Source of the DNA: Halovenus amylolytica
GTDB taxonomy: Archaea; Halobacteriota; Halobacteria; Halobacteriales; Haloarculaceae
NCBI GenBank assembly: GCA_004015825.1
Contig: SAYS01000014.1
Coordinates: forward strand, 62,001 to 126,000
Reading direction: 5' to 3'
Length of the DNA: 64,000 bases
The translations under genes were made by a program, and so were the position numbers. Of this stretch, positions 12,388 through 26,870 are shown in pieces. Numbering within the stretch: the first letter of the stretch is position 1; every line of letters begins with the position of its first letter. The notes beneath the pieces were generated by a model. That model saw only the letters and a list, made by a program, of their open reading frames with translations, was not told the origin of the DNA and did no database searches.

Positions 12388-12780
12388 CTACTGATCGTCC
12401 ACGTAGTCCATCAGCACGTCAATGCTCACTTGGCCGGTCGTGGCGAGGAAGTAACCCGGTTGCCAGAACGCATCTTCGAGCGTCTGTGTCACTTCAGGAA
12501 ACTCTGAGCGAATCCGGCGAGACGTGACGCCTTTGAGCGAGTTGATGAACTTCGTGAGGTCTGTGGTTGGTTTGGTCCGAAACAGGATGTGAACGTGGTC
12601 GGTTCCGCCGTCCACGTTCTTGATGTCGGCCTCGAAGTCATCTGCAATGTCGTGGGCGATTTCAGCGACACGCTCCAGCCGCTCATCCGTCAGAATATCG
12701 GCACGGTTCTTTGTGACGGTCACGAAGTGATACTGAAGCGCGTACACTGTGTGGGACCCGGTTTGCAGATGATACTCCAT
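12388..12780 (-). CDS. tnpA: IS200/IS605-family Y1 transposase TnpA
   Basis: 130 residues, a normal length for the family. TnpA catalyses single-strand excision and insertion through a 5'-phosphotyrosine intermediate. The HUH motif (DHVHILFR near residues 61-68) is present and the catalytic tyrosine is most likely the Tyr in VLMDYVDDQ at the C-terminus. The usual core is visible: VYALQYHFVTVTKNR at the start and FINSLKGVTSRRI in the middle. With both TnpA and TnpB intact the element may be mobile. The gene begins about 80 bases from the small left-end hairpin. Confidence 0.93.
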   Translation of the reverse strand: MEYHLQTGSHTVYALQYHFVTVTKNRADILTDERLERVAEIAHDIADDFEADIKNVDGGTDHVHILFRTKPTTDLTKFINSLKGVTSRRIRSEFPEVTQTLEDAFWQPGYFLATTGQVSIDVLMDYVDDQ

Positions 12781-24381: not shown

Positions 24382-25563
24382 CTAGTACGATTTCGGGAAG
24401 CCGATCTGCTGGCTGATGTGGTTGTACGCCATCTGCTGGGTGACCGGTGCCAGGCGTGTGAGATTGATCTCCCGCCACCAGCGCTCGATATCGTACTCCC
24501 TGGCGTATCCCCACCCGCCGAAAGCCTGCATCGACTGCCGGACTGTCTCGATCCCGGCCTCGACGGCGGTCGCCTTGGCGACGTTCGTCTCGTAGGCGCA
24601 ATCTTCACCCTGATCGAACAGCCAGGCAGCCTTCTCCCGCATCAGTCGGGCAGTCTCCATGCGCGCATAGGCTTTCGTTATCGGGAAGGAGACTCCCTGA
24701 TGGGCCCCGATCGGTGCGTCGAACACCTCCCGGTCGTTGGCGTACTCGATCGCAGTCGATGCAGCAAGCTCGCCGATACCGGTGCCCGCTGCCGCGAAGC
24801 CGATCCGCTCGGGGTTGATCATGTGGACGAGCGGCTTCCAGCCACCACCTTCTGCGCCGAGCAGGTTCTCGGCCGGCACGCGAACGTCGTCGATGAACAC
24901 CTCGCAGGACTTCGAGTAGTTGATCCCGTGTTTGGGAATCGGGGAGGTCTCGATCCCGGAGTCGTCCATGTCGATGATGAACAGAGAGATTCCGTCGGTC
25001 GGCCGATCGACGTCGCTTCTCGGCGTCGTTCGCGTCACCAGGATCATGTTGTCGGCGATATCTGAGAAGGTGATCCAGGCCTTCTCGCCGTTGAGCACGT
25101 ACTCGTCGCCGTCTTTCTCCGCACGGGTCTTGATATTCAGGGTGTTGGTTCCGGCCTTCGCCTCGGTGATACCGATCGAGAAGTTCCGGTCTCCCGCGGC
25201 GATATCTGGGAGGTACGTCTCTTTCTGTTCGTCGGTGCCGTAGTCGCGGATTCCGAGTGCGGCCATCCCTGCTGTCAGGACGAGATACCAGGTGCCGGCC
25301 ATTCCGCAACCCTCTGCACAGAGTGTCTCCATGGCGAGGCCCATCTCCTGCATCCCCATCGCTGCGCCCCCGTACTCATCCGGGATCAGGAGGCCGTGAA
25401 AATCCGCCGCAGCGAGTTCGTCCCAGAACTCCTGGGCGAACTCACCCTTGGCCTCTTTTTCGCGCCAGTAGGTCGGTCCGAACTCCTCGGCGACCGCCGT
25501 CGCGGTGGATTCGATCAACCCGTGTGTGGTGTCGGCGCTAAAATCCATGGTTTGAGTTCGCAT
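24382..25563 (-). CDS. Acyl-CoA dehydrogenase
   Basis: 393 residues, a normal family length. This FAD enzyme oxidises an acyl-CoA at the alpha-beta bond and passes electrons to ETF; both EtfA and EtfB are encoded at 46.5-48.2 kb. The usual segments are present: IPDEYGGAAMGMQEMG, the FAD-binding RDYGTDEQKETYLP and FSIGITEAKAGTN, LNGEKAWITFSDIAD, and the C-terminal REVFDAPIGAHQGVSFPITK and QAFGGWGYAREYDIERWWRE, whose Glu in REYD is the likely catalytic base. The start at 25563 is followed by an in-frame ATG five codons later, so either could be used. It is co-transcribed with the carboxyltransferase. Confidence 0.92.
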   Translation of the reverse strand: MRTQTMDFSADTTHGLIESTATAVAEEFGPTYWREKEAKGEFAQEFWDELAAADFHGLLIPDEYGGAAMGMQEMGLAMETLCAEGCGMAGTWYLVLTAGMAALGIRDYGTDEQKETYLPDIAAGDRNFSIGITEAKAGTNTLNIKTRAEKDGDEYVLNGEKAWITFSDIADNMILVTRTTPRSDVDRPTDGISLFIIDMDDSGIETSPIPKHGINYSKSCEVFIDDVRVPAENLLGAEGGGWKPLVHMINPERIGFAAAGTGIGELAASTAIEYANDREVFDAPIGAHQGVSFPITKAYARMETARLMREKAAWLFDQGEDCAYETNVAKATAVEAGIETVRQSMQAFGGWGYAREYDIERWWREINLTRLAPVTQQMAYNHISQQIGFPKSY

Positions 25564-25660
25564 ACCCTACGGCTGGTCGACTTTTAGTGTTTGCCGTGAT
25601 CGGGGTTAGTATGTTCGTGGTGAGGAGGGTCTGGGAGAACTCGATCAGGAACATCGGTGC

Positions 25661-25677
25661 AAACAGCAAGAAAGCCC
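25661..25677 (+). repeat. Terminal repeat, left copy
   Basis: The 17-mer aaacagcaagaaagccc marks the left edge of the structured block. Its exact inverted copy is at 26059-26075, and a one-mismatch inverted copy at 26007-26023. Confidence 0.85.
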
Positions 25678-25863
25678 CCGGTCGCTTAGCGACTGCGACT
25701 CGTTGCGCTCCTCGCTACGCTGTCGTTCGAAAGGCCGCCGGCCTTTCGTGATCACGAGAGAGCGTTGCTCTCTCGAACGACGGTGCTTACGTCGTCTCGT
25801 TCGCTAAGCGACCGCCGGGAGACGGAGTCTCCCGAGCAATCGGGCGCGTCGCGCCCGATGACG

Positions 25864-25919
25864 GCCCCTTTCAGTCCCGCCCAATGTGGCTTTCCAGGCC
25901 GGGCGGGACTGAAAGGGGC
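25864..25919. repeat. 19-bp perfect inverted repeat
   Basis: gcccctttcagtcccgccc at 25864-25882 is the exact reverse complement of 25901-25919, with an 18-base loop. It is the strongest single stem in the structured block. Confidence 0.9.
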
Positions 25920-26006
25920 GAGGCTATCAACGAAGGTGGGCGACGTAAGCACCACAACGACCGGAGGGAGTGAGGAGCGCAGCGAGCCCCCCGAGTTGAT
26001 AGCCTC

Positions 26007-26023
26007 GGGGCTTTCTTGTTGTT
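26007..26023 (-). repeat. Terminal repeat, first right copy
   Basis: ggggctttcttgttgtt is the reverse complement of 25662-25678 except one base, which would pair as G-U in RNA. A local 7-bp stem 25989-25995/26004-26010 followed by this T-rich stretch looks like an intrinsic terminator on the plus strand. Confidence 0.8.
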
Positions 26024-26058
26024 CGGGACGGTATTTCTGATGAGGTTCGCTCGTCACA

Positions 26059-26075
26059 GGGCTTTCTTGCTGTTT
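26059..26075 (-). repeat. Terminal repeat, second right copy
   Basis: gggctttcttgctgttt is the exact reverse complement of 25661-25677 (17 of 17), 52 bases beyond the first right copy. Confidence 0.85.
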
Positions 26076-26162
26076 ATTCTGCTTCTATCGAAACACTCAC
26101 ATAAAACCCCAAACACCGCCATTTCGATACGCTTTTGCACGGCAGGAGAGGTGATCTATTGT

Positions 26163-26870
26163 ATGGCACGGGGGGATCGCGAGAAGTTAGCCGAGAAAAT
26201 CGCCGGCGAGATTACGCTCAGCGACAACCCCGGCGCGACGCTCCGGAAGTGGCGGACTGATTTCGAAATCGCCCAGACCGACCTCGCAGATCGACTCTCT
26301 GTCTCCCCATCTGTCGTCTCCGACTACGAGAGTGGCCGCCGGGACAACCCCGGGATCGGGATCGTCCGCCGGGCGGTCGACGCCCTGCTCGATATCGACG
26401 AACGTCGCGGCGGGAGTCACATCCGCCAGTACGCACGCGTCCTCTCGGCCGGTTTCGACAGCGCTGCAGTCCACGACCTCAACGAATATCCCGCAAATAT
26501 CCCCCTCGAACGGTACTACGAGGCGATCGAAGCCACGGAGATTGTCGAAGGAACGCGAGATACGATCGCCGGACACACCATCATCGATAGCATCGAGGCG
26601 ATTAAGAATCTCTCCAGTGACGAGTTCTACAATCTCTACGGGCAGAGTACGAACCGTGCACTGGTGTTTACGAACGTCAGCCGCGGTGAGTCACCGCTCG
26701 TCGCACTCCGTGTCGTCAAACCGACACCGCATGCGGTCATTTTGCATGGTCTCACCGAAGAGGACGTCTGGGAGTTCGCACCAGATCTCGCCAGAAAAGA
26801 CGGCTTCTCGCTCGCTGTAACTGATCTCCCGCTCGAAGAAATGCTCGAACGGCACCGCGAACTACCCTGA
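26163..26870 (+). CDS. Archaeal helix-turn-helix transcriptional regulator (COG1709-like)
   Basis: 235 residues from ATG 26163. A Cro/C1-type helix-turn-helix lies near residues 30-65: ATLRKWRTDFEIAQTDLADRL with SPSVVSDYESGRRDNPGIG, a clear recognition helix. The remaining 165 residues form an alpha/beta ligand or partner domain (QYARVLSAGFDSAAVHDL, NLYGQSTNRALVFTNVSRGESPLVALRVVKP) conserved among archaeal members of this family. It ends 18 bases before the stop of the convergent HMG-CoA synthase gene. In many archaea this regulator sits beside mevalonate-pathway genes, suggesting a possible link to isoprenoid lipid synthesis. The structured block is directly upstream and might be its leader. 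Confidence 0.87.
   Translation: MARGDREKLAEKIAGEITLSDNPGATLRKWRTDFEIAQTDLADRLSVSPSVVSDYESGRRDNPGIGIVRRAVDALLDIDERRGGSHIRQYARVLSAGFDSAAVHDLNEYPANIPLERYYEAIEATEIVEGTRDTIAGHTIIDSIEAIKNLSSDEFYNLYGQSTNRALVFTNVSRGESPLVALRVVKPTPHAVILHGLTEEDVWEFAPDLARKDGFSLAVTDLPLEEMLERHRELP

Follow-up and report, generated by a model that had tools for sequence, protein, structure and literature searches.

The DNA examined here (the window) is a 64,000-nucleotide stretch of the Halovenus amylolytica genome, in which a block of 415 bases (25661-26075) lies between two divergent genes, one for an acyl-CoA dehydrogenase on the minus strand and one for an HTH protein on the plus strand, the same two neighbours that an earlier note on this DNA had named. 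That note described dense, nested inverted repeats, and our results confirm them: a repeat search of 25400-26300 recovered nine inverted-repeat pairs, and the plus strand of the block has a folding energy of -256.6 kcal/mol, where 100 dinucleotide shuffles give -170.6 (sd 5.68) and none equals it (z -15.14); the minus strand gives z -12.65. The palindromic structure is genuine and lies far outside what chance would produce. The outer 17-bp terminal repeat that had been proposed is present and exact (25661-25677/26059-26075). A central hairpin has an exact 19-bp stem (25864-25882/25901-25919), while two 21-nt pairs (25679-25699/25794-25814 and 25911-25931/25995-26015) match at 86%, each with a perfect 12-bp part; a long-range pair (25782-25794/25941-25953) is exact over 13 bp, as are two local hairpins over 10 bp each. 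The earlier tally of four long-range helices and five local hairpins was not reproduced item by item, and calling the block protein-free is a judgement, given that mechanical open reading frames of 101 aa (minus strand) and 91 aa (plus strand) cross it.

The block is not a single design; it consists of two inverted copies of one unit of about 115 nt, with nested hairpins in the left copy and, to the right, a further terminal motif. A covariance model of the unit (R1) finds only two matches in the whole window at E values up to 0.1, and these stand head to head: the left half-unit, folding on the minus strand and enlarged by the nested hairpins (25662-25882; 42.9 bits, E 1.6e-8), and the right half-unit, intact, on the plus strand (25901-26023; 126.9 bits, E 9.4e-29). 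The left unit ends in the terminal motif of the family, which reads outward as GGGGCTTTCTTGCTGTTT (25661-25678, minus strand). Inward of it lie the 12-nt inner side of the stem (25679-25690), variable in sequence across the family and paired, with covariation, to its partner side (25803-25814); conserved loop motif B (25697-25711), placed by sequence and by the motif maps of other copies; a nested double hairpin built of inverted pairs (25722-25781); and conserved loop motif G (25782-25796), which takes part in an inverted pair. A second pair of nested hairpins (25816-25859), similar to one in copy L010, separates the left stem from the central hairpin that joins both units (25864-25919). On the right, the two sides of the stem (25920-25931 and 25995-26006) are followed by the terminal motif (26007-26023, plus strand), and the extra terminal motif, a direct repeat 51 bp further out (26059-26075, plus strand), pairs exactly with the left one. 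Modules resembling the two nested double hairpins, with other hairpin sequences, were seen by eye in copies from other genera (L018, L010, L087, L094).

Searched against its own genome, the block gives at least 114 matches (40 of 98 candidates were scored), and its terminal motif, ACAGCAAGAAAGCCCC, is found 150 times when at most two mismatches are allowed, compared with a single occurrence of a reversed-pattern control. In 63 merged regions the order of motifs is terminal motif, loop B, loop G, central C and then the mirror image; many copies are incomplete, down to little beyond two terminal motifs, or to one alone. The basic unit is a hairpin made up of a foot stem (GAAAG/CUUUC), an internal loop that is G-rich and conserved, a 12-bp stem whose sequence is almost free, and a loop region that is again conserved. 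In other genera single half-units, of about 115 nt from GGGTGGGACTGAAAGGGGC to GGGGCTTTC, are common, and head-to-head pairs also occur (e.g. in genome G003). Copies of one genome tend to agree in the tail 3' of GGGGCTTTC, and those of different genomes to differ in it. One genome (G009, copies L303-L307) carries a longer form, with an extra conserved 5' part common to the five aligned copies and a foot stem altered on both sides (CAAAG/CTTTG); two of the five tails run into at least five T (L304, L305). Several copies show arrangements of their own. Locus L071 (G176:C1:1889822-1890161) has seven tandem terminal motifs at a spacing of 54 bp, each with the start of a stem, the last of which enters a unit. 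Four copies of the Halovenus genome (L030, L005, L032, L044) hold, inside the central hairpin or loop, an element of about 110 bp that starts with TAGTGTTTGTTGCG, has inverted ends and is flanked on both sides by TCA or TGA, which recalls the habit of the mobile repeats called SMR-A of entering palindromes. The C-hairpin of L002, near 1400-1500, has a different palindromic insert (beginning TACTGCCGGCTGTAA) at the same TCA position.

The earlier note had proposed searching other haloarchaeal genomes for homologues, and with the covariance model the unit is found in 127 of 145 genomes sampled from the class, spanning 51 of 58 genera. Since no more than 24 candidates were scored per genome, copy numbers are floors, and some genomes have at least 24 copies. 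In a sample of the phylum 29 of 196 genomes match, all 29 in the same order. The matches listed for the motif pattern include Haloarcula, Halorussus, Haladaptatus, Haloarchaeobius, Halolamina and Natronorubrum, as well as one Roseomonas metagenome-assembled genome. Among plasmid records 33 match, all of them haloarchaeal, and no phage record matches the pattern.

What the copies share is foremost a structure. The 229 distinct half-units carry 172 different 12-nt stems, and Watson-Crick pairing per stem column reaches 73-97%, against 30-91% predicted from column composition (the top value being that of a nearly invariant column). Over 131 aligned units 94.7% of cells are paired, compared with 26-50% in slid structures. 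Compensatory change, which the earlier note had proposed to seek with a covariance model, is strong: the whole structure holds 718 double-changed cells (cells, not independent events) against 199.5 (sd 13.5) in shuffles, and double changes occur in 22 of the 28 predicted pairs. For the 12-bp stem it is very strong, structure being kept while sequence drifts, even inside one genome. The remaining mismatches single out a strand. Read from the terminal motif toward C, stem positions 1-12 contain 115 A.C and 28 G.T mismatches (36 to 7 in the Halovenus genome and 79 to 21 in the others; binomial p about 1e-13, without correction for relatedness). An A.C mismatch on one strand corresponds to G.T on its complement, so that the strand reading outward to the terminal motif seems to be the one under selection; and since the asymmetry is present on each strand of the Halovenus genome separately (15:4 and 21:3), it follows the unit. 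Thus, one strand appears to be the folding strand. In the alignment of 131 units the main stem of this strand shows 43 G.U and 6 A.C; contrary to this signature, an inner helix with poorer pairing carries 12 G.U and 26 A.C.

Such a signature is compatible with RNA and single-stranded DNA alike. The main rival to the reading that we favor below is a multicopy structured RNA, in which the folding strand would be transcribed outward and end at the pyrimidine-rich terminal motif, the stems being kept for the work of the RNA and the copies spreading secondarily. Covariation beyond the controls, the tolerance of G.U on one strand of the main stem, the foot stem of G009 changed on both sides and its T-rich tails all speak for it. 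On the other hand, no promoter was seen by eye in the short central loops, no Rfam family corresponds to the element, and single units show no orientation relative to genes (see below). We regard such an RNA as possible, at somewhat better than one chance in four. The two identities offered by the earlier note find partial support. For its large structured RNA, many homologues with covarying stems are at hand, which is the mark that the note itself had set for an RNA; single units are unoriented, and a discrete RNA is at most putative. Alternatively, the shape may exist without function: template switching and gene conversion could keep the palindromes perfect, with the family as a by-product. 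Perfect hairpins at several scales, nested ones included, speak for such correction, as do a loop whose direction differs between the stem halves (seen by eye in L187 and L081) and the inverted interior described in the next paragraph; yet the loop motifs are conserved across many genera, and on both genome strands the mismatch asymmetry goes with the direction of the unit, a pattern that correction by itself does not predict. We consider this account very improbable.

Evidence of movement comes from 32 genomes of one genus, apparently Haloarcula, in which one site could be compared across 15 loci. Six of these carry the element (G115, G169, G313, G084, G106, G269), two in truncated form, and another six lack it (G051, G188, G016, G154, G212, G102); G185 has a different half-unit, and 2 loci are incomplete. 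Where present, the interior may differ in direction: between G169 and G313 it matches at 252 of 275 positions when reversed and at 203 of 260 forward, and the comparison of G169 with G106 gives 297 of 327 when reversed, against 218 of 299 forward, although the central hairpin alone does not favor inversion (35/43 forward, 32/45 reversed). At this locus, then, the element is present, absent or inverted. By eye, the element-free sites show an exact GCTGTT in 2 of 6, GGCTGTC in one and near variants in two, with neither in G188; these strings may represent a target preference or a footprint of loss, and absence itself may be loss. For the copy in the window no empty site was readable in the congeners examined, where its two flanking genes match at separate places. 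Target duplication was found in none of 55 elements of the Halovenus genome, with no excess over shuffled pairing.

These observations bear on the second identity that the earlier note had offered, a MITE, which in its classical form would owe its movement to a DDE transposase acting on the inverted terminal repeats. Many dispersed copies, small size, inverted terminal motifs and presence or absence at one site agree with it; near-identical copies with target duplications, which the note had named as support for a mobile element, do not appear, as the copies diverge strongly and none of the 55 elements is duplicated at its flanks. It is on these two grounds that we do not regard the element as a classical MITE. 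In addition, the stems covary instead of being copied, the terminal motif is all that is shared, the tails differing from genome to genome, and no transposon bearing the ends of the element was seen in the copies examined. We therefore hold a classical MITE to be improbable, at about one chance in ten.

With regard to genomic context, for which genes were called by a composition score of our own, without annotation, 64 sites of the Halovenus genome with both neighbours called comprise 23 divergent, 31 tandem and 10 convergent arrangements; of the intergenic length free of the element, taken mostly from other genera, 26% is divergent, 47% tandem and 27% convergent. Single units elsewhere (n=91) lie at 33 divergent, 51 tandem and 7 convergent sites. 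The scarcity at convergent sites perhaps reflects selection against transcribing the element. A pooled orientation count over all loci mixes paired and repeated loci; for the single units a gene start is faced by the 3' side in 61 of 91 and by the 5' side in 56 of 91, and thus there is no sign of directed action on neighbouring genes. A role as cis-regulatory leader or terminator was rejected for this lack of orientation, and no evidence was seen that the copy in the window regulates its two neighbours.

A search for the enzyme that might move the element centered on Y1 transposases. None occurs near copies, and the five Y1 loci of the Halovenus genome carry no element motif, including an IS200-type match within the window (12391-12750, minus strand; C12:74391-74750). 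Nor does the Y1_Tnp domain correlate with abundance, being found in 8 of 12 element-rich genomes (14-24 matches) and in 13 of 18 element-free ones; a Y1 partner was rejected on both counts. In one copy (L055, G000:C13:73600-74790) a transposase gene, IS630-like by eye, is inserted between the terminal motifs; it has ends of its own, and we discarded it as an autonomous partner. No transposon sharing the termini of the element was seen in the copies fetched. A census of neighbours (307 proteins at 157 loci, some loci repeating the same place) gave largest families of six members each, two of which come from either side of the Haloarcula locus. The remaining family, a DEAD-box helicase from several lineages (L018, L094, L102, L114, L196, L204), is possibly adjacent by chance.

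Overall, we suggest that the block belongs to a family of non-autonomous mobile hairpins dispersed in haloarchaea, REPIN-like in architecture and moved as a folded single strand, a reading to which we give about an even chance. It builds on dispersal, presence, absence and inversion at one orthologous site, covariation of the stems, mismatches that single out a strand and no detectable target duplication; recognition and insertion of the single strand by an enzyme acting in trans are what we infer from them. Such an enzyme would recognize the folded strand by its shape and conserved ends and insert it mostly between genes, rarely between convergent ones. REP/REPIN sequences and IS200/IS605 ends are dealt with in this manner, but the enzyme here need not belong to that family. 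Nested hairpins would be later insertions into existing ones. Against this stand the one inner helix that runs counter to the strand signature, the fit of that signature to RNA as well, the central hairpin, which by itself does not favor inversion, the chance that absence at a site is loss, with an exact GCTGTT left at 2 of 6 element-free sites and GGCTGTC at one, and the fact that no enzyme was found among the candidates checked (Y1 loci, neighbours of copies and genes inside copies). A broader possibility, to which we assign about one chance in five, is a self-spreading structured nucleic acid present across the class and kept in most species, for which shape is the main requirement. It would be either an RNA hairpin or an element whose copying passes through a folded strand of RNA or DNA; its stem sequence would drift freely, and its arms would invert and exchange between loci.

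As to mechanism, the folded-strand reading finds its closest model in REP/REPIN sequences with their transposase TnpAREP. According to the sections of PMC8266576 drawn on here, TnpAREP binds one strand of REP but not the complementary one, and an irregular zone in the stem matters. Both groups, as far as those sections go, are dispersed, non-coding, intergenic hairpins with inverted pairs and an unpaired zone in the stem; REP is recognized on one strand as folded single-stranded DNA, and the present element has the mismatch asymmetry of its main stem, which RNA would leave too. Set against the same sections, the unit differs in being about 115 nt rather than 20-40, in having a conserved 5' end GGGTGGGACTGAAAGGGGC and no GTAG tag, and in that no Y1 transposase (TnpAREP/RAYT) lies beside its copies or tracks their number. 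For archaea, the part of PMC6006769 consulted reports only the typical IS200 subclass. In the same organisms the nearest described class, compared by description from portions of PMC3119063, is that of the short or small mobile repeats (SMR) of Haloquadratum walsbyi, which are likewise haloarchaeal, about 110 bp long, bounded by inverted terminal repeats and present in tens of copies, with neither target duplication nor a mover found. However, SMR copies are highly alike (commonly over 95%; PMC3119063, in the same portions), whereas those of the present element are divergent with a conserved structure, and SMR-A target IS605-type palindromes. The PATEs of Haloquadratum, as those portions of PMC3119063 present them, also resemble it in being haloarchaeal, non-coding and palindrome-bearing, with some types heterogeneous, but lack inverted terminal repeats and have near-terminal palindromes of IS605 type. 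With MITEs it shares short length, lack of coding, inverted termini and dispersal, and differs in showing no target duplication and no parent transposon found.

The earlier note had thought the block a candidate for something undescribed, and this holds as far as searches of Rfam and open-access text reach. Rfam gives no match to the element at gathering score, only miRNA-like and Bacillus-plasmid matches far below it, along with a neighbouring tRNA; the open-access literature, subscription papers lying outside the search, yielded no paper with the motif strings and, by word search, no recognized description. Most of the haloarchaeal genomes sampled carry a non-coding element for which we found no curated RNA family and no searchable open paper, and whose stems clearly illustrate how a structure can persist under sequence drift. 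Should a folded-strand mechanism move it, the element would be an archaeal counterpart of the REP/REPIN world served by another enzyme; should it be an RNA, then one found throughout a class of archaea has gone unnoticed. In both cases, the spread of hairpin repeats becomes testable in culturable archaea.
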